Assembly: GCA_030018135.1 (NCBI GenBank)
Contig: JASEGJ010000001.1
Location: forward strand, 1 to 64,000
From: Candidatus Hodarchaeaceae archaeon
GTDB lineage: Archaea; Hadarchaeota; Hadarchaeia; Hadarchaeales; Hadarchaeaceae
DNA length: 64,000 nt
Direction: 5' to 3'
The notes under the pieces: generated by a model
The model's input: the letters and a program-made list of their open reading frames with translations, nothing else
Database searches by the model: none
What the model was told of the DNA's origin: nothing
Shown: piece by piece, positions 5,978 through 42,654 of the stretch
Numbering within the stretch: position 1 is the first letter of the stretch
Layout: each line of letters opens with the position of its first letter
Position numbers and translations under genes: made by a program

Positions 5978-6958
5978 ATGAAGGAAATCGCGGGGTTTTT
6001 AGCGGATGCCTCCAGGCGCGGGCAGCGAATTCTGGTGCTCTGCCACCACAACGCCGACCCGGATGCGGTTGGCAGCTCGCTTGCGCTCGTTGATGCGCTC
6101 AATCAGCTAGGTGCACGGGCCCGAGCTGGCGTCTCCGAAAGCATCGGCCGCGTTGCCCGAAGCGTTCTGGATGCCATTGGGTTGGACATCCCCATCGACC
6201 CCCCGCTCGACGCCGACATCATCGTATTGGTAGATACATCTAGTTTAGAGCACCTCGGAAAGTTGGGAGAACAGGTAAAAGGGGTACAGGCTGAGCTAGT
6301 CGTCATCGATCACCACAAACCGGTCGAGGAAATGCAACGTCTGGCGAAGCTCTACCTCGTGTTGGAGGATCAAACTTCGCAGTCGGAGGTGGTACTGCAG
6401 TTGATCCGCGAGCTCGGCGCCGAACTAAAGCCGGAAATGGCATTTCTATTGCTGGCCGGCATAGTGAGCGACACCGGGCAATTCAGGCTTGCCAAGGAGG
6501 CGACGTTCGAGGCGGTCCATGCACTTGTCGAGGCTGGGGCCAATTACCGACGCGTGTTGGGGGCGCTGAAGTTGCCGGAGGACCTATCTAGACGCGTCGC
6601 GTTGCTAAAGGCCGCCCAGAGGCTGGAGCTGCATCACATCCGCGGGTGGATAGTTGTTCTATCCGAGGTGGGCTCTTTCGAGGCGGACGCGGCGGCGATG
6701 CTCATCAGGATAGGCGCGGATGTCGCATTGGTCGGGTCAGAGGACAAGGGAAAGATAAGGATATGCGCTCGCGCGAGGGAGGGATTGTGCGAGGAAACTC
6801 ACCTGAATTTAAGCGACTTAATGTCGGAGCTGGCAAAAAGCTTTTGCGGCGCTGGCGGGGGGCATGCGGGCGCGGCGAGCATGAATGGCGAGGGCAAGCT
6901 CGCCGAGGCAAAAAAGCAGGCGCTGCAGATGCTGCAGCGCATGTTGGAGCCAAAATAG
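5978..6958 (+). CDS. DHH family phosphoesterase
   Basis: HNADPDAVGSSLALV, VIDHHKP, GGGHAGAAS motifs. Confidence 0.92.
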   Translation: MKEIAGFLADASRRGQRILVLCHHNADPDAVGSSLALVDALNQLGARARAGVSESIGRVARSVLDAIGLDIPIDPPLDADIIVLVDTSSLEHLGKLGEQVKGVQAELVVIDHHKPVEEMQRLAKLYLVLEDQTSQSEVVLQLIRELGAELKPEMAFLLLAGIVSDTGQFRLAKEATFEAVHALVEAGANYRRVLGALKLPEDLSRRVALLKAAQRLELHHIRGWIVVLSEVGSFEADAAAMLIRIGADVALVGSEDKGKIRICARAREGLCEETHLNLSDLMSELAKSFCGAGGGHAGAASMNGEGKLAEAKKQALQMLQRMLEPK

Positions 6959-6965
6959 CCCATCG

Positions 6966-7901
6966 GTGGTGGAGGTGGCCATCCTTCCTCGGGATGTAGC
7001 GGACCTAGAGCGCAGCGGGTATCGCTTCGTCGGCGGGCATAAGCATGGGGCGGTAAAGATCTGCCATTGGACGAGGAAAAGCCTGCTGGATCGTGGGGTC
7101 TGTTATAAAGAGCAGTTCTACTGGCGGGAGCTGGGCGTGCGGAGCCACCGCTGCCTGCAGCTGACGCCGAGCCTGCCCTTCTGCGATCACAAATGCGTGT
7201 TTTGTTGGCGAAATGTTGAGGTGACCTACCCGAGCTGGGTCGGCGGGGTAGATGGGTCGGCTGAAATCCTGAGCGGCGCGGTTCAAGCGCAACGGCAGCT
7301 GTTGAGCGGGTTTAAGGGCAACCCGAACACGAACATGCGAAAGTGGGTGGAGGCACAGGAGCCGAAGCACTGCGCGATATCCCTCGCCGGGGAGCCGACC
7401 ATCTATCCGGAGGTGAGTGGGCTCATCGAGGAGTGTCGCAAATGTGGCATGACGAGCTTTTTGGTCACGAACGGACTGCACCCGGAGGTCTTAAGGGACA
7501 TGGCCGAGCCCACGCAACTCTACATTTCCGTTGTCGCCCCAGATAGGGAGACATATGAAATTGTTTGCAGGCCGCAGGTTCAAGGTGGTTGGAGGAAGTT
7601 GAACGAGAGCCTTGAACTCATGCCCTCCTTTTCGTGTCGCAAGGTCATCCGCCTTACAATGGTCAAGGGGTTAAATCTCAAGGACGCGGCGGGCTATACG
7701 AAGCTCATCGAGCGGGCCAAGTGCGACTACATCGAGGTAAAGGCTTACATGCATGTCGGCTTCGCGCGCGCGCGGCTTAGCTTGGAAAACATGCCAAGCC
7801 ATGGGGAGATCAAGGACTTCGCGGCGGAGCTGGCGGGGGAGGGCGGCTACGAGATCGTCGATGGATCTGAGCCAAGCCGGGTCGTATTACTAAAGCGTTG
7901 A
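6966..7901 (+). CDS. taw1: tRNA 4-demethylwyosine synthase (TYW1/Taw1), radical SAM
   Basis: CDHKCVFCWRN radical SAM motif and SLAGEPTIYP; conserved start likely GTG near 6966 rather than ORF start 6885. Confidence 0.9.
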   Translation: MVEVAILPRDVADLERSGYRFVGGHKHGAVKICHWTRKSLLDRGVCYKEQFYWRELGVRSHRCLQLTPSLPFCDHKCVFCWRNVEVTYPSWVGGVDGSAEILSGAVQAQRQLLSGFKGNPNTNMRKWVEAQEPKHCAISLAGEPTIYPEVSGLIEECRKCGMTSFLVTNGLHPEVLRDMAEPTQLYISVVAPDRETYEIVCRPQVQGGWRKLNESLELMPSFSCRKVIRLTMVKGLNLKDAAGYTKLIERAKCDYIEVKAYMHVGFARARLSLENMPSHGEIKDFAAELAGEGGYEIVDGSEPSRVVLLKR

Positions 7902-7944
7902 AAACAAAAAGAGAGGGAAGATGCCCCTCGGCGATGCCCTTTCC

Positions 7945-9057
7945 CTAGCCCCTCCGAGGCATCCTCTCCCTCCATCTTTGCCTTATGTTCTCCATAAATT
8001 GCTCGCGATGTTGGAGGATGTTTTCCCAGATTCCCTCCTCCATCAACTCGTGCTTCATGTTCTCCCACTGGTGCTTCCACTGGGTCCATTCCTCCTTGAA
8101 CTTCGGCTCCCACTCGCTTGCGCGTTCGAGGATTATCTTCGCGTTGAGCAGGTGCATCCTCGCGGCATGGATCAGGCCGAGCGCGTTTTGAGTGTTGTTA
8201 TCCTCATATGCCGCTGCAGCTTTGTCCCTGAGCTCGATCGCCACTTCGACTAGCCGCTCGGCCGCGCGCCTGCCGGGGGCATTTTCTGGTGCCCCCTCTA
8301 GCATCATTTCGACTTCCGACAGTAGTATCTCGAACTCACCTAGCGCGTTCTCGAAGCCAGCGGCCCAGTTCGGGGGCCTTATCGTATTTACCTTGGCCTC
8401 GACGTTCACCTTGATGTCCACGTCGACGAGCATGTTGTCGATGTCCAGGTACGCGAAAAATGGCTTGCGGATGCGCGCGCGATGGCGCTCCGCTATATTT
8501 TCGAGCCTCCCCATTATCAGGCGCAGGTGCGCCCTGATGTTTTCCCGCAGCTCGGGCGAGGCTGCTTGCCATCCCCGCACGTAGTTCTCGATCTCCCCGA
8601 TCTCGTCCTCGACCTCCCCTTGTACCTCGGGCAGGTCCGCCAGATCCTCCTTAAGCCTTTCGGCCAACTCCCGGCAGAGCCTTAACTGCACCAAGCCTAT
8701 CCCCGGCATCTGCTCCTGCATCCACCTCACCGCCTCCTTCCTTGCCTCGACGTCACCGGGCGCGACCTCGTGCATCCTCGTCACGAACTCCTCTAGGATT
8801 CGCTTGTACTCGAGGCCTTTCCCGCGCTCAGCCAAGCGGGCGTACTCGCCCCAGCGCTCCCTCATCTGATCCTCGGTGTTAATCCTTCTGATTCGCTCGC
8901 CGAGTCGCTCGAGCCCGTAGAGTGGGTGATCGGGGTCGACATCTATTGCATCAACCGCCACCGGCACCGCCGTCGTCACACCAGCCGATACGGCGATTAT
9001 CGTTATCACCGCCACCGCTGCAATCCCTCTTTGATCCAACCTTCTCATTTTCCTCAC
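7945..9057 (-). CDS. Secreted/membrane-anchored helical protein (DUF5667-like)
   Basis: N-terminal hydrophobic signal GIAAVAVITIIAVSAGVTTAVPVAV then VDPDHPLYGLERLGERIR. Confidence 0.6.
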   Translation of the reverse strand: MRKMRRLDQRGIAAVAVITIIAVSAGVTTAVPVAVDAIDVDPDHPLYGLERLGERIRRINTEDQMRERWGEYARLAERGKGLEYKRILEEFVTRMHEVAPGDVEARKEAVRWMQEQMPGIGLVQLRLCRELAERLKEDLADLPEVQGEVEDEIGEIENYVRGWQAASPELRENIRAHLRLIMGRLENIAERHRARIRKPFFAYLDIDNMLVDVDIKVNVEAKVNTIRPPNWAAGFENALGEFEILLSEVEMMLEGAPENAPGRRAAERLVEVAIELRDKAAAAYEDNNTQNALGLIHAARMHLLNAKIILERASEWEPKFKEEWTQWKHQWENMKHELMEEGIWENILQHREQFMENIRQRWRERMPRRG

Positions 9058-9331
9058 CTTTTTTGTTCGGGTTCAGCTCCCCGCGCCGCCCCTATCGCGC
9101 GCGCGGCTCATCGATTCCACTTAAACCTCGGGTTGAAGGGGTACTTAAAAAATCTCTAAAAACCGTCCATTTTTCCATATTTTAAAGTCTTTTTTGGCTG
9201 TATTTTTTAAAAACTTAGTTTTTTAATACTCCAATTCGTTCATATTCGGGTTATTCCAAATATTTATGTGATAACTGCTTTTTATTTACTTTCTCGAAAC
9301 GCTTTTATCAGCGCTCGCCATATGGCATTTT

Positions 9332-9766
9332 ATGACCCTTCGCGAGGCGTTCGGCTTGGTTGCGCTGGTCGTGGTGCTCCAACTTTGCCTAGGTATTTTG
9401 ATTTACGGGCCGCTCAAACCCGCACCGGGACTGGAGCTGTACTCAATCATCGTCGCGGTGCTCGTGATGGCCGCCGTTTCCAGCTCGATCGTCGTCGCTT
9501 TGTACGCCGTCTTCAGCCGCTACGCCGCGGAGCGCGCGGTGAGGGTTGCGATGATGACCCTGACGGAGGACGAAAGAAAGGTGCTTGAGCTGATAATGCG
9601 GTCCGGCAGCGAGGTTCGCCAAGATCAACTCAGACGGCAGTTGGACTTTTCGAAGTCGAAGCTCAGCGCCCTCATCAACAACCTCGAGCGAAAGGGCGCA
9701 ATAACAAAGATGCGATATCATAAGACCAACGTGCTCAAGCCGACGAAGGAGTTCGCTGGCTGTTGA
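9332..9766 (+). CDS. Membrane-anchored winged-helix regulator
   Basis: Two TM segments then wHTH LTEDERKVLELIMRSGSEVRQDQLRRQLDFSKSKLSALINNLERKGAITK. Confidence 0.75.
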   Translation: MTLREAFGLVALVVVLQLCLGILIYGPLKPAPGLELYSIIVAVLVMAAVSSSIVVALYAVFSRYAAERAVRVAMMTLTEDERKVLELIMRSGSEVRQDQLRRQLDFSKSKLSALINNLERKGAITKMRYHKTNVLKPTKEFAGC

Positions 9767-9828
9767 GGTCCGGCCGCTTCGGAGGAATGACACGTTTTTT
9801 GAACATGAAGCGATGAATTAATGGGGAT

Positions 9829-10452
9829 TTGATGAAGAAAATCGTGGAACGGATGCGTCGCCACTTTGACGCCCAAGAGAAGCTGCGCGAACAGGTGCTC
9901 GAAAATTCGCGGCAAGTGGTTAGGCTTTCCGCTCGGGCGATAACCGCGATGCACCGCGGTGATTCAGCCACAGTTAAGGAAATGATTAGCCAGGCTAAGG
10001 AGGGCATCGCTACCCTGGCGGAAGCCGTTAAAGCCGAACCCCACCTCGCAGATTCCGGCACGATCTTGGCGGCCTATCAGGAATACTGCGAAGCCGTTTT
10101 GATGCGCGCGTTAATCGAGGAGGGGAAGATGCCCGAGCCGGAGGAGATGGGCGTCCCGTACAAGCCCTACCTCGCCGCCCTCGCGGACGCGGCGGGCGAA
10201 CTCAGGCGCCGCGCACTCGACCTAATCAGGGGCGACGAGGTCGATGCGGCGGAGCGCATGCTTAAGCTGATGGAGGACATCCTCGAGCTGCTGATGGAGT
10301 TCGACTACCCCGATGCCATCTTGCCCGGCATGAAGCGCAGGCAGGATATGGTCAGGCATGTGGTCGAGAAGACGCGGGGGGATCTAACGACCGCGATAAG
10401 GCAGCAGAAGCTGGAAAGCGCCCTGAGGCGCTCCGAGCGGGCGAGGAAATGA
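9829..10452 (+). CDS. Translin family protein
   Basis: Helical translin-like sequence (MKRRQDMVRHVVEKTRGDLTTAIRQQKLESAL). Confidence 0.75.
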   Translation: MMKKIVERMRRHFDAQEKLREQVLENSRQVVRLSARAITAMHRGDSATVKEMISQAKEGIATLAEAVKAEPHLADSGTILAAYQEYCEAVLMRALIEEGKMPEPEEMGVPYKPYLAALADAAGELRRRALDLIRGDEVDAAERMLKLMEDILELLMEFDYPDAILPGMKRRQDMVRHVVEKTRGDLTTAIRQQKLESALRRSERARK

Positions 10453-12029
10453 AATTCGACACCCGGAAGATCAGGGCGAGGGCCGAGAAGGACTTCGAGC
10501 GCGCTTGGCTCGAGAGCGCCGAGCTGATAGAAAAACGGGGAAAATTTTTTAGGCTGTCGAATAAGCGCATGCCACATCCGCTTTTCGACCTCATAATCAA
10601 AATCAGGCAGACCATGCTTGAGCTGGGCTTCGCCGAGGTTTTCGTGCCCACGATAATCGAGCGCGGCGAGGTGTACTTGCAGTACGGGTCGGAGGCGCCC
10701 GTCATCCTAGATCGGGTGTTCTTCCTCGCGGGCTTGGATCGCCCCGACATCGGGTTGAGCAAGCGGCGGATTCAGGAGATTCAAAAGTTCATACCCGGCT
10801 TCAAGGACGTAAAGCGACTCCAAGGTATACTCAGGCGCTACAAGCGGGGCAAGATCGGGGCGGACGAGCTCGTGGAAGTCATGGTTAAGGAGTTAAAAAT
10901 AGAGGAGGGCCATGCGACGGCGCTGATCTCGCTCTTCGAGGAATTTAAGGAGCTTGAACCGACCCCGACGACCTTGACGCTGAGATCGCACCTCACCGCG
11001 GGCTGGTTCTCCGTGCTGCGCGAGATGAGGCGCCGCGAGCCGTTGCCCATCCAGCTTTTCTCGATAGGTCCGAAGTTCAGGCGCGAACAGAGGCTGGACG
11101 AAACACACCTTTATGACTCCTGGACCGCCTCGCTCGTGGTGATGGCGGAGCGGATGAGCCTCGAGGACGGCCAAGGGCTTGTAAAGGACATCCTCGACAA
11201 GCTCGGGTTTGATGACATCAAGTTCGAGGTGAAGGCCGCGACCTCGAAATACTACGCGCCGCAGACCGAGTTTGAGGTCTTCGTCAAACATCCGAAGACC
11301 GGCGAGTTTTTAGAGGTGGGCGATGCCGGCTTTTACAGCCCGGTGGCGCTGAGCAGGTACGACATCCCCCACCCCGTCTTCAACTTCGGCATGGGGCTCG
11401 AGCGCCTCCTCATGGTGATGACGGGCGAGAGAGACATGCGGGCGCTAGTGTACCCCTACCTCTACAGGGGGACCGCCTTCTCTGACGCTGAAATCGCTGG
11501 CATGCTGAGGATCGAGCGCGGGCCGACGAGCGAGGCGGGCAGGCGAATTGCCGAGGCCATAGCGAGGGTCGCCGAGGAGCATGCGGACGAGCCGAGTCCA
11601 TGCGAGTTCAAGGCGTTCGATGGCGAGCTCTTCGGCAAGCGGGTCAGCGTCAGCGTTGTGGAGCCGGAAAGCGGAACAAAACTCATCGGGCCCGCCGGCT
11701 TTAATGCCATCTATGTCCACGAGGGCAACATCGTAGGCCTGCCGCCGAAGGGGTGGGAGCAGGATAAATTTCTGCAGGAGGTTAAAAAACGCGGCATCTC
11801 GACCGGCATTCGCTACATCGATGCGTTCGCGGCGCTCGCGGCGCACGAGATCGAACGGGCGGCTAGGCGGGGCGAGCGTGAGGTCAAGGTGCGGGTGCGC
11901 GCGGCGAAGTTGCTGAGCGACATCAACTTGGCCCTCGATGAGGTCGCGCAGCGCTACATAACCGACAATAAAAAGCGAATCGATGTTAGAGGACCTATAT
12001 TCACGACCGTCGTGGCGAGGATCGGTTGA
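10449..12029 (+). CDS. sepS: O-phosphoseryl-tRNA(Cys) synthetase
   Basis: Class II aaRS, MKFDTRKIRARAEKDFERAWLESAELI...GKFFRLSNKRMPHPLFDLIIKIRQTMLELGF; FGMGLERLLMV motif 3. Confidence 0.93.
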   Translation: MKFDTRKIRARAEKDFERAWLESAELIEKRGKFFRLSNKRMPHPLFDLIIKIRQTMLELGFAEVFVPTIIERGEVYLQYGSEAPVILDRVFFLAGLDRPDIGLSKRRIQEIQKFIPGFKDVKRLQGILRRYKRGKIGADELVEVMVKELKIEEGHATALISLFEEFKELEPTPTTLTLRSHLTAGWFSVLREMRRREPLPIQLFSIGPKFRREQRLDETHLYDSWTASLVVMAERMSLEDGQGLVKDILDKLGFDDIKFEVKAATSKYYAPQTEFEVFVKHPKTGEFLEVGDAGFYSPVALSRYDIPHPVFNFGMGLERLLMVMTGERDMRALVYPYLYRGTAFSDAEIAGMLRIERGPTSEAGRRIAEAIARVAEEHADEPSPCEFKAFDGELFGKRVSVSVVEPESGTKLIGPAGFNAIYVHEGNIVGLPPKGWEQDKFLQEVKKRGISTGIRYIDAFAALAAHEIERAARRGEREVKVRVRAAKLLSDINLALDEVAQRYITDNKKRIDVRGPIFTTVVARIG

Positions 12030-17110: not shown

Positions 17111-17130
17111 AGCAACGGTAGCAGGCCCAA

Positions 17131-17304
17131 CTATCGCTTTAACACCCTCCAGACCCTCACCGCCTCGGCTATAGCGGGCCTTCCCTCAACGAACATCTCC
17201 ATCGCCCTGTGCTTGCCGGTCCATTGGATCAGCCTCGGTTTGGAGATTCGCCTGCCCACGCACCTTATCTTCTCGGCTTCGATGCGCTCATTGCTCTGGC
17301 TCAA
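17131..17304 (-). CDS. Small basic protein downstream of RHH regulator
   Basis: TTG start overlapping the upstream gene's end; MSQSNERIEAEKIRCVGRRISKPRLIQWTGKHRAMEMFVEGRPAIAEAVRVWRVLKR*. Confidence 0.5.
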   Translation of the reverse strand: MSQSNERIEAEKIRCVGRRISKPRLIQWTGKHRAMEMFVEGRPAIAEAVRVWRVLKR

Positions 17305-17650
17305 CCCAGCCCTCCTGCCATAGTTCCATTAAGATCTCGTTGACCAAGCTCATGTCTATGCGTAATGCATCGCTTATTTCGTCCGCCCTCACGCGTTCCT
17401 TGCCCTTTAGATATTCCCTGACCTCTGCTTTAGCCTGCCTTTTCGTCACATCGCGGTAGGTTATCACCTCAAGCCCACGGAGGTGCTCGGCGTGGTGCTT
17501 TATCGCCTCCCTTATCGCCTCAGCCTTTGAGACACCCAGCTTTTTCGTGATCAAATTCAGCTCGTCCTCGCGCTCGCTGAGATCAACGGGATAAACATAC
17601 CTCCGAGTTTTAGCGTCCACCATTTCTTCTCCGGTATAAGATTTATACAA
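17288..17650 (-). CDS. Ribbon-helix-helix/wHTH-like regulator (antitoxin-like)
   Basis: YVYPVDLSEREDELNLITKKLGVSKAEAIREAIKHHAEHL. Confidence 0.6.
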   Translation of the reverse strand: MYKSYTGEEMVDAKTRRYVYPVDLSEREDELNLITKKLGVSKAEAIREAIKHHAEHLRGLEVITYRDVTKRQAKAEVREYLKGKERVRADEISDALRIDMSLVNEILMELWQEGWVEPEQ

Positions 17651-17694
17651 AAGTATAAATATTTATTACCCCTCCTGCATTCCTGTTAAGATTT

Positions 17695-17928
17695 GTGTGT
17701 AAGTGGTTTATTGGCGGAAAACATGATGGTCGGGAGGTATTTTACACCACTGAGCAAGTAGCCCGGGCGCAGGAGAAGGCGAGGAGGCTCGGGGTTTGGG
17801 CGTCACCGCTCGAGGAGGAACGCGAGCTTAAGCAGTTCGGCGGGTCGCTCGTCGTCTCAATTCCGAAGGCTATGGCGAAGTCCCTGAACCTGGCGCCTAG
17901 GCAGCGGGTGAGGATAACGCCTGACTGA
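17695..17928 (+). CDS. SpoVT/AbrB-domain protein
   Basis: C-terminal LKQFGGSLVVSIPKAMAKSLNLAPRQRVRITPD. Confidence 0.7.
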   Translation: MCKWFIGGKHDGREVFYTTEQVARAQEKARRLGVWASPLEEERELKQFGGSLVVSIPKAMAKSLNLAPRQRVRITPD

Positions 17929-18146
17929 GCAGGGGATCTCGATCACGAAGAGCAGAAAAGAGGTTCATTGATGCTTAACCTTGCTATTTGTTCAAATGAA
18001 ACAAAACCCGTCGTTTTTTCTTTATAAAAGTTCATTCCAGAGTGTAGTTTTATTAATCGGAATAAATGGCCCCTCTCCCGAATAGCCGCCAAACGATTTC
18101 AGCCTTGGGCAAAACCTTGCCTAGGGCCTTCCTTACGGGTCTGAGC

Positions 18147-18454
18147 CTATCCCTTCGGAATCCAATTCACGACGATGCGCTTGATCGCACCATCGACGAA
18201 CACCAAGGGTGGATGCGGGCATGGCATTCGGGCCAGGTCTAGACCATGCTCTGGCCCGACCTCAAGAGAGTGTTGTAGAGGTCGGCCCTCACCTCGCCTG
18301 GGATACTTTGACTCGAGAAAACTAGGATGTCTAGGTCGGACTCGGCCGGCTTCCACTCGCCCCGCATCGATGAACCGAAGGGGAGGATCCGAAGCTGAGG
18401 ATATTTGCCATGCGCCCGCCTTATGAATTCCTCTAGGAAAGGCGCGGTTGTCAT
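18147..18454 (-). pseudogene. Minimal (MNT-type) nucleotidyltransferase, frameshifted near C-terminus
   Basis: ILPFGSSMRGEWKPAESDLDILVFS...LLRSGQSMV* then HGLDLARMPCPHPPLVFVDGAIKRIVVNWIPKG in another frame. Confidence 0.6.
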
Positions 18455-18794
18455 GGTTCCCCTTCGCGAAATTCCAAGTTATTTTTGAAAACCCGATATG
18501 CCCAAGAAACATCGATCTCGCCCATGTCCTCGTGCTTGATCCCAAGCGTGTGGCGTAGCTCGTGTATCACGATCTTGGCGAAAAGCTTCGGGTCAAACCC
18601 AAACCAGGAGGCCAGTAAACGGCTAGCCACTTTTTCTTGAAGGAAGAAAAGCCATCAGGAAAGGGCGAAGCTCGACTGTTAAACACGTTAACTTGATACC
18701 CGTTGGGATCCACGTGTTCGCGCTCAAAGCAGGCTAGGATGATTCTTTCGAGTTTCCTTGTTTCAATTTTTGTCGTGTTTTTTATTTGCATCAA
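18451..18794 (-). pseudogene. Zinc metalloprotease, frameshifted
   Basis: MMQIKNTTKIETRKLERIILACFEREHVDPNGYQVNVFNSRASPFPDGFSSFKKKWLAVYW then shifted frame ...FDPKLFAKIVIHELRHTLGIKHEDMGEIDVSWAYRVFKNNLEFREGEP*; HExxHxxGxxH motif; stop overlaps NTase ATG (ATGA). Confidence 0.6.
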
Positions 18795-18825
18795 GCCTTT
18801 TTGTGAACTTTATAGGTGTCAAGAA

Positions 18826-18846
18826 CCGCCGGTCAAAGACCGGCGG
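18826..18846. repeat. Perfect hairpin 1 CCGCCGGTCAAAGACCGGCGG
   Basis: 9-bp arms, AAA loop. Confidence 0.9.
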
Positions 18847-18897
18847 CATGAAATGGTTCGACTTCAGGATACTAACTCAGCTACGAGCTACGGGTTA

Positions 18898-18918
18898 CCA
18901 CCAGTCAAAGACTGGTGG
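18898..18918. repeat. Perfect hairpin 2 CCACCAGTCAAAGACTGGTGG
   Basis: 9-bp arms, same core GTCAAAGAC, compensatory arm changes relative to hairpin 1. Confidence 0.9.
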
Positions 18919-18979
18919 AATTCTTTCTTTAAAGTTTACGAAGAAACATTAATTAATGTCTTTTCTTAATGTTTAAAAT

Positions 18980-19858
18980 GTGCAAATAATGAGATTTTGG
19001 GTTCTCTCGGGGAGCGAAGAACATTGGGAGAGAGCATTAAAAGAAAATAAGTGGGGTGTGGGACCTAATCTGAAAAAACGTTGGGATAAGCTCTCACCGG
19101 GAGACGTTTTAGCTTTTTATGTGAAAGCCCCAATAAGCGAAGTAATTGGCTTTGGTATTGTGGAGCAGTCAGCTGAAGAGAATACACCTTATTGGCAGGA
19201 AGAGGTGGAAAGCAATCAGGTTATTTGGCCATTCAGGTGGTATTTTAGAATCGAACATCTATGTGAGAAGCCGTGGAAGGAGAATAAAGTTTTCATTAAG
19301 GATTTGAAGATAGAAATCCGCGCTGGGCTTAACTCTTTGACAAACAAGGATGTCATAAGTTCTCTGCTTACAAGGGCTAACGTGGCATGGAAAATTGATG
19401 TTTCACGCCTACTGGCTCCTGAAATAATTAGAACCGCAAAAGTGGAAGAGAAACCCGTTCGCGTGCATGATAAAATCAGAGATATGATACGTGAGATAGG
19501 TGAAGTGGATAATTGGATAGCTGAAACAGAGTATCCAATAGAGGATCTAGGCGATTTAGATGTTGTGTGGAGAAGGATCCCAACGGGCAATCCGACATAT
19601 GTATTCGAAGTACAGATCGGCGGCGATATCTTTCAAGCTTTGGTAAAATTAAAACACGCATTTGACGAGTGGAATAGCATCCCGTTTTTAGTAATAGACA
19701 AAAAATTAAGGAAAAAAGCTCGGGATAATATAGGAGGGGCATTCCACCAAATAAAGGACAAAATAAAGATCATAACCACCGAAGAAATTGAGGAATTGTA
19801 TAACATCCAAAGTAAAGATAAACAAATCAAAGACAGATTAAAATCTCCCTTTTGCTAA
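18980..19858 (+). CDS. EVE-domain protein with C-terminal PD-(D/E)XK-like nuclease domain
   Basis: N-term MRFWVLSGSEEHWERALKENKWGVGPNLKKRWDKLSPGDVLAFYVKAPISEVIGFGIV; C-term GDLDVVWRRIPTGNPTYVFEVQIGGDIFQALVKLKHAF. Confidence 0.7.
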   Translation: MQIMRFWVLSGSEEHWERALKENKWGVGPNLKKRWDKLSPGDVLAFYVKAPISEVIGFGIVEQSAEENTPYWQEEVESNQVIWPFRWYFRIEHLCEKPWKENKVFIKDLKIEIRAGLNSLTNKDVISSLLTRANVAWKIDVSRLLAPEIIRTAKVEEKPVRVHDKIRDMIREIGEVDNWIAETEYPIEDLGDLDVVWRRIPTGNPTYVFEVQIGGDIFQALVKLKHAFDEWNSIPFLVIDKKLRKKARDNIGGAFHQIKDKIKIITTEEIEELYNIQSKDKQIKDRLKSPFC

Positions 19859-21089: not shown

Positions 21090-21401
21090 ATGTCTGAGGT
21101 AAGACGAGGGATGGCGATGGCATACCTGCTCATTTTCGACCTGAAGGGGGGCAACACCGCCGGTAGGAGGCGGGTGAACAGGTACCTGAGGAAGGCCGCG
21201 AGGAGGGTTCAACAATCGGTGTGGGAGTTCAAGGACCTGCGGGCACTCATGGGCGCTGCCCGGCTGATATCGGCCGTCGGGGGGCGCGCGATGGCATTCG
21301 TCAGGGGGGACGCGCTCGTTTTGGAAATGTCTGAGGTAAGACAAGTCCTGAGCGACGCCTCGGGTAAAATATCAAGCTCGAAGGGGAGATGTCTTAGGTA
21401 A
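21090..21401 (+). CDS. Orphan Cas2-like protein (ferredoxin-fold); start 21090, or 21111/21117
   Basis: MAYLLIFDLKGGNTAGRRRVNRYLRKAARRVQQSVWEFKDLRALMGAARLISAVGGRAMAFVRGDALVL: Cas2-like beta1 + RRRxNRxLRK + RVQQSVWEF; no cas1 or CRISPR in window. Confidence 0.6.
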   Translation: MSEVRRGMAMAYLLIFDLKGGNTAGRRRVNRYLRKAARRVQQSVWEFKDLRALMGAARLISAVGGRAMAFVRGDALVLEMSEVRQVLSDASGKISSSKGRCLR

Positions 21402-21648
21402 GACATCCTCCGACCCGCGAACTTCCTTGCCAAACGCCCGGATGATTTCGTACAAGTGGGTGGCGTGCCGCGATTTAGCGTGTCTGAGGTAAGACAAGAT
21501 GTCTTAGTTAAGACACCAATTTTAGCGCGCGTCTTAGGTAAGACATATCGACCTCGGAGTTGTCTTACGTAAGACACGATGCAAGGTTGAGGGCTGTCGC
21601 GCGAAACATCAAAGGGGCGAGGGTCTGTCCCATGTCTTAAGTAAGACA
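21091..21648. repeat. Irregular array of eight 16-bp palindromes, consensus TGTCTKANNTAAGACA
   Basis: Copies at 21091-21106, 21328-21343, 21390-21405, 21481-21496, 21500-21515, 21530-21545, 21561-21576 (perfect TGTCTTACGTAAGACA), 21633-21648. Confidence 0.95.
21481..21546. repeat. 66-bp three-palindrome block, copy 1
   Basis: tgtctgaggtaagacaagatgtcttagttaagacaccaattttagcgcgcgtcttaggtaagacat, identical to 31525-31590. Confidence 0.97.
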
Positions 21649-21701
21649 TGCCAACAAGCCGACTTCAATGCGAGGTCGAGCGCGACCACGAAATTTTTCG
21701 G

Positions 21702-31524: not shown

Positions 31525-31590
31525 TGTCTGAGGTAAGACAAGATGTCTTAGTTAAGACACCAATTTTAGCGCGCGTCTTAGGTAAGACAT
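31525..31590. repeat. 66-bp three-palindrome block, copy 2
   Basis: Identical to 21481-21546; palindromes at 31525-31540, 31544-31559, 31574-31589; in convergent intergenic gap. Confidence 0.97.
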
Positions 31591-42559: not shown

Positions 42560-42654
42560 TGGTGGGGCCGCCGGGATTTGAACCCGGGTCTCCAGCACCC
42601 CATTCCAGATCCAAAGATTAGCTGGGAGGATTGGCCAAGCTACCCTACGGCCCC
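42560..42654 (-). tRNA. tRNA-Pro(GGG) with about 17-nt intron, CCA encoded
   Basis: GGGGCCG...CGGCCCC A CCA; T-arm CCGGGUUCAAAUCCCGG; anticodon stem CCAGC/GCUGG; removing AAUCUUUGGAUCUGGAA (42603-42619) leaves loop UUGGGGU. Confidence 0.75.

Follow-up and report, generated by a model that had tools for sequence, protein, structure and literature searches.

A putative single-chain, modification-dependent restriction endonuclease of EVE-PD-(D/E)XK architecture in a hadarchaeal genome

The stretch of hadarchaeal DNA analyzed here (64,000 nucleotides, the window) carries a gene at 18980-19858 that a preliminary description read as an EVE domain fused to a PD-(D/E)XK-like nuclease with an E-x-Q motif, situated in a low-GC island. 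The locus raises the question of what such a protein does, that is, whether its two halves are indeed a reader of modified bases and a nuclease, what kind of active site the nuclease would have, and how the gene came to be in this genome.

Two predicted domains on one chain

The gene and the parts of its product, with residues numbered from the GTG codon, are:

18980..19858, forward strand: EVE-PD(D/E)XK fusion gene, 292 aa as listed, GTG start
ATG at 18989, forward strand: alternative, likelier start of the same gene, giving 289 aa, based on homologue starts
18989..19393, forward strand: predicted EVE domain, a modified-base reader of the PUA superfamily, residues 4 to ~138, from profile and Foldseek matches
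19394..19459, forward strand: linker, residues 139-160, with low model confidence at 150-160
19460..19855, forward strand: predicted PD-(D/E)XK-like nuclease domain, residues 161-292, from AlphaFold, Foldseek and the family alignment

The open reading frame is present on the forward strand as first described, with 292 aa and a GTG start, and residues 194-212 read D-V-V-W-R-R-I-P-T-G-N-P-T-Y-V-F-E-V-Q, as had been written. We take the frame to be real since it is kept across tens of homologues, archaeal and bacterial, and since four tests gave above-chance matches of its N-terminus to EVE models or structures. The N-termini of the homologues (MNYW.. or MRYW..) align with Met4 of the window protein, which makes ATG 18989 a likelier start than GTG 18980 and probably the true one.

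By profile searches and by predicted structure, the N-terminal half is an EVE domain, as had been proposed. The NCBIfam model PRK00809 (EVE/UPF0310) matches residues 4-110 with an E-value of 1.6e-7, which does not reach the 139 bits that the model sets as its cut-off for a whole protein. A phmmer search with the window protein reached the EVE protein PH1033 (E 8e-4), and a profile built from 15 homologues reached PH1033 in the PDB (E 5e-6). The Pfam EVE model (PF01878) gave no match in a scan of the window protein itself and matched 10 of the 15 aligned homologues (best 2.4e-8). The AlphaFold model of the whole protein (mean pLDDT 87) contains an EVE/PUA fold, with Foldseek matches to PH1033 (3.7e-7), MJECL36 (2e-6), VcaM4I (6.7e-6), YTHDF2 (2.2e-5), and ASCH (3.1e-5). 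Structure prediction, which the preliminary description had named as a check on both halves, therefore yields an EVE fold for the first.

For the second half, a model of residues 160-292 (m4e29b4b571da, pLDDT 92.7, pTM 0.85) runs helix-strand-strand-strand-helix-strand (H3-17, E21-28, E32-39, E48-53, H58-72, E75-80), which is the alpha-beta-beta-beta-alpha-beta topology of the PD-(D/E)XK core. No sequence match covering this domain was found in Pfam, NCBIfam, PADLOC, or the PDB, and a Pfam GCN5L1 match under the cut-off (0.0037), which falls on a helical stretch, was set aside as chance. The best Foldseek match is the R2 retrotransposon endonuclease (2.1e-3, probability 0.98), and MUS81, Can2, EcoT38I, VRR_NUC, and Card1 are further top matches. 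All of these E-values are weak (2e-3 to 0.3), and the top matches are mostly PD-(D/E)XK proteins, with several non-nucleases and unrelated folds listed. Because unrelated folds occur among them, the assignment rests on topology, conservation (in particular an invariant Asp194 and Glu210), and structural matches together, and from these we predict a PD-(D/E)XK-like nuclease fold for the C-terminal half, in agreement with the earlier suggestion.

Readers joined to the C-terminal domain and a proposed function

As judged from the sequences of its homologues, the C-terminal domain is a portable effector of archaea and bacteria that has been paired repeatedly with different readers. It is joined to EVE in the window protein, in the Hadarchaeota genome G003, and in several archaea, as well as in bacteria of the Chloroflexi, Acidobacteria, WOR-3, Stahlbacteria, Omnitrophota, and Kryptonia. 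Elsewhere it follows a reader related to the TgMcrB N-domain or YTH-like (L004, L034, L035, and L030; PDB 6p0f, E 0.005), another PUA-like module starting S-F-x-H-P-H (hhalign to the EVE alignment, E 3.2e-5), Mrr_N (L051, E 7.5e-25; L059, E 1.5e-8), or zinc-ribbon-like N-termini (L056 and L060, under curated cut-offs). A distant relative carries an OGG-like HhH region (L014; Pfam OGG E 6e-5, under the curated cut-off), and the domain also occurs alone as a short ORF of 126 aa (L076-L078). On a tree of 48 rows the N-terminal types require 11 changes, against a minimum of 5 and a value of 22.8 for shuffled labels. The HhH-bearing relative (genome G029, 697-1911, 405 aa) adjoins a large SNF2/PLD helicase and a methyltransferase.

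We propose that the window protein is a putative single-polypeptide, modification-dependent (type IV-like) restriction endonuclease, a reading that we consider likely on the strength of sequence, predicted structure, and analogy. In the proposed mechanism, the EVE domain would flip out and read a modified base in invading DNA, by analogy with VcaM4I and other EVE proteins, and a flexible linker would carry the PD-(D/E)XK domain, which would cut nearby. What is observed is that a reader and a predicted nuclease fold share one chain, that the fold keeps its invariant Asp and Glu, that its relatives are fused to several readers, and that the gene has a patchy distribution, a foreign composition, and a variable genomic slot. 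From this we infer that cleavage would depend on metal, that the target would be DNA and not RNA, that a particular modification would be read, and that the protein would act in defence. In favour of the proposal, and in line with the link to modification-dependent restriction drawn at the outset, the readers to which this effector is joined (EVE, TgMcrB-like, Mrr_N, and another PUA-like module) are of kinds that type IV enzymes employ, and the tree shows repeated changes of reader; the weak fold matches of the C-domain (best E 2e-3) count against it. In the literature we found no report of modification-dependent cleavage tested on the family of this C-domain.

Proteins of this general kind are already known by prediction, since Bell, Wolf and Koonin (2020; PMC7641849) predicted type IV enzymes of the EVE-PD(D/E)XK and YTH-PD(D/E)XK architectures, and an EVE-HNH modification-dependent endonuclease, VcaM4I, has been characterized (PMC7897488; PDB 6yex). 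With the EVE-PD(D/E)XK class the window protein shares the joining of reader and nuclease on one chain and the predicted restriction of modified DNA; compared by class architecture rather than by member lists, it differs in a C-domain that lacks the ExK lysine and is matched by none of the models in Pfam, NCBIfam, or PADLOC. VcaM4I has the same one-chain arrangement, but its nuclease is HNH whereas that of the window protein is PD-(D/E)XK. The type IV enzyme Mrr is related through its Mrr_N, which is joined to the C-domain of the window family in L051 and L059; the window protein itself lacks Mrr_N, and Pfam does not recognize the C-domain as Mrr_cat (PF04471) or as any other family in the members scanned. 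The N-domain of Thermococcus gammatolerans McrB (PDB 6p0f) and the YTH-PD(D/E)XK enzymes have a related reader on the sister proteins L004, L034, L035, and L030. McrB, however, is a GTPase that recruits McrC, whereas the window family carries its nuclease on the same chain and has no NTPase.

EVE domains bind modified RNA as well, which also counts against a type IV enzyme. The protein might instead be an RNA-directed nuclease or toxin, in which EVE would recognize a modified base of tRNA or rRNA and the attached nuclease would cleave RNA in a response to stress or in abortive infection, an alternative to which we give a low probability. Modified RNA is bound by the EVE and YTH domains of other proteins, many EVE proteins were placed in toxin-antitoxin contexts (Bell et al., 2020; PMC7641849), and the C-domain has among its Foldseek matches Can2 and Card1-type domains, a fold that can act on varied nucleic acids. 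The effector nevertheless also occurs joined to Mrr_N, through which a type IV restriction enzyme binds DNA, and to a module resembling the m6A-DNA reader of TgMcrB. Moreover, an antitoxin-like partner is not consistently adjacent among the homologues.

Origin and surroundings of the gene

The GC content of the gene (0.40) is the lowest among the 44 long ORFs of the window (mean 0.586, sd 0.044), and its third-position GC is 0.40 against 0.72 (sd 0.085), so the gene is indeed more AT-rich than its neighbours; the island in which it had been placed shrinks to one gene and a flank of ~1.9 kb at 50% GC (17111-18979). In the closest relative, G005, the genes corresponding to the two flanks are 82% and 80% identical; different genes occupy the slot they enclose, and the EVE gene was not found there. 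Horizontal acquisition, suggested earlier from composition, is well supported by the combination of the compositional outlier and this slot. Further counted toward it are the patchy presence of the gene family in Hadarchaeota (3 of 28 genomes examined) and the positions of the three copies at three separate places in the tree, where the window sequence has no well-supported neighbours. The family also occurs in 7 of 29 genomes of the phylum of G193, in 64 of 398 genomes of the archaeal phylum of G150, and in several bacterial phyla; single-protein queries, which reach close relatives only, found no homologue in phages, plasmids, or IMG/VR viral contigs.

The neighbouring genes in the window encode endonuclease V, an RNase J-like hydrolase, a radical-SAM-like protein (weak match), and a conserved 362 aa protein that is primase-like by eye and has no PDB match. 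With regard to a methyltransferase beside the gene, the flanking genes matched other families, the 362 aa protein was unmatched, and small ORFs lay outside the comparison. A defence island was not found around the window gene, and neighbour scans of homologues were mixed. A few homologues adjoin restriction genes (L081, HsdM/HsdS/HsdR; L092, type IIG; L098, an SNF2 helicase and a methyltransferase), which speaks for the type IV reading; many lie among housekeeping or metabolic genes, which, like the position of the window gene outside an island, is counted against it. Because generic helicases and AAA proteins raise the PADLOC tallies near homologues, we claim no enrichment. In the host assembly (1.1 Mb, 93% complete) the m5C methyltransferase family PF00145 was not found, which is compatible with a cytosine modification as the target and is not proof of it; another contig of the assembly has one weak PF01555 match and an interrupted PF02384 gene.

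The many homologues outside defence islands would also suit a DNA-repair endonuclease of thermophiles whose targets are bases with damage or chemical alteration and not the modifications of viruses, as would the OGG-like HhH fusion of the distant subfamily. We think this unlikely, however, since a repair enzyme should be more stable than the foreign composition and frequent reader swaps indicate, and since the distribution is patchy even within a single archaeal phylum (the 64 of 398 genomes) and in Hadarchaeota.

Several features near the gene are recorded here in their own right, beginning with one short element:

18817..18936, no strand assigned: mini-element with two subterminal IS200/IS605 hairpins, ~44 bp upstream of the GTG and not part of the enzyme

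Its hairpins are CCGCCGGTC-AAA-GACCGGCGG and CCACCAGTC-AAA-GACTGGTGG, with nothing coding between them, and a second copy (91%) lies at G000:C1:34428-34541. Comparable hairpins lie on both sides of a tnpB-like gene in G015 (L108) and adjoin a tnpA-like gene in G011 (L107), both genes being named by eye. There is no evidence that this element, a remnant made up of a pair of ends and present in other places too, mobilized the gene. Between it and the start codon, an imperfect inverted repeat at 18928-18977 (27-nt arms, 81%) could be an operator or promoter feature. Reverse-strand remnants occupy 18147-18794 upstream, and a 71 aa ORF at 18239-18454 resembles a truncated nucleotidyltransferase (GSS...DLDIL motif by eye). 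For RNA structure, the EVE-nuclease region gave only sub-threshold Rfam matches. Palindromes of 16 bp, TGTCTNANNTAAGACA, cluster in the window at 21090-21650 and 31525-31590 and in the host genome at G000:C41:13693-13927 and C44:8443-8640. They belong to a dispersed repeat of ~70 bp (66 bp identical between 21481-21546 and 31525-31590), their pattern has 34 forward and reverse matches in the host genome against 0 for a reversed-pattern control, and the family is nearly absent from other Hadarchaeota. The cluster at 21.0-21.7 kb looks like an insertion or expansion because its two flanking genes are directly adjacent in G005. The tRNA-Ile that ARAGORN places on the reverse strand at 42560-42654 has the anticodon AAT, which is unusual in an archaeon, and the tRNA may be mis-called or intron-containing. 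Next to the EVE-nuclease homologue in L072, an anaerobic ribonucleotide reductase gene (6889-10599, reverse strand) is split by a LAGLIDADG intein.

Proposed active site of the C-terminal domain

Residue conservation was counted over the 54 homologues of the family alignment, and the positions of interest are:

19466..19468, forward strand: His163, first helix, 51/54
19529..19531, forward strand: Glu184, strand 1, 50/54
19559..19561, forward strand: Asp194, strand 2, 54/54, proposed metal-binding Asp
19607..19609, forward strand: Glu210, strand 3, 54/54, proposed metal-binding Glu
19613..19615, forward strand: Gln212, at the usual Lys position, variable among homologues and never Lys
19652..19657, forward strand: Lys225-His226, helix B, 51/54 and 52/54, proposed relocated catalytic Lys

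Other conserved positions of the domain are D229 (53/54), W231 (49/54), G253 (51/54), and H256 (48/54). The acidic pair typical of the superfamily, an invariant Asp and an Asp or Glu on strands 2 and 3, is present as Asp194 and Glu210, and in the model Lys225 lies on the helix that follows. The canonical lysine two residues past the Glu occurs in none of the 54 sequences.

BglII has an E-x-Q active site, and the window protein likewise has Gln at this position, which had led to its being read as a BglII-like catalytic variant. Across the family, however, position 212 is Q in 30 sequences, H in 14, S in 4, N in 2, E in 2, C in 1, and V in 1. Thus E-x-Q is one state of a variable position, the Gln is unlikely to be a defining catalytic residue, and BglII-like catalysis is ruled out as the family signature. 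Since Gln212 is unconserved whereas Lys225 is kept, a migrated lysine is the likelier explanation. We propose that Asp194 and Glu210 would bind metal and that Lys225 would most likely replace the missing strand lysine, the catalytic lysine having probably moved to helix B as in the R2 endonuclease, a view based on conservation and on the R2 analogy. In R2Bm the catalytic lysine, Lys1026, sits on a helix and not on a strand (PMC10499050). The R2 endonuclease (PDB 8ibz, 8gh6), the best fold match of the C-domain, differs in being part of a retrotransposon protein, and we found no sequence similarity between the two. Counted against the type IV reading is that Lys225 is missing in L058, L059, and L060, and that the distant HhH-fused subfamily (L007, L010, and L014) does not keep it, with Gln-Lys at 225-226 in L014 and L007.

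There is, in our estimate, a small chance that the C-domain defines an unnamed helix-lysine nuclease family, a plug-in cutter on at least five reader types in archaea and bacteria. Its chief task would then be incision at altered bases, shared by immunity and repair, with some of the readers serving the repair of damaged bases, as the HhH/OGG-like fusions may suggest. That it is a PD-(D/E)XK fold devoid of catalytic activity, with a part in DNA binding or dimerization only, might be argued from the canonical strand lysine missing in all 54 homologues but is very improbable, since dead copies usually lose such residues and here Asp194 and Glu210 are invariant, and Lys225, His226, and Asp229 nearly so, in very diverged sequences.

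New with respect to the type IV enzymes predicted before are a delimited nuclease family, absent from the libraries searched (Pfam, NCBIfam, and PADLOC), with its invariant residues, the arguments for a lysine on the helix and against E-x-Q, and the repeated pairing with different readers of modified DNA. If the type IV reading is correct, an uncatalogued nuclease family with a relocated lysine would join the archaeal and bacterial type IV enzymes, and a single effector would have been combined anew with EVE, YTH-like, Mrr_N, and other readers. The family would then be a natural collection of compact one-chain enzymes in which to look for new modified-base specificities, and the window gene would be a candidate defence gene for the Hadarchaeota, the nearly unstudied archaea of the hot subsurface.
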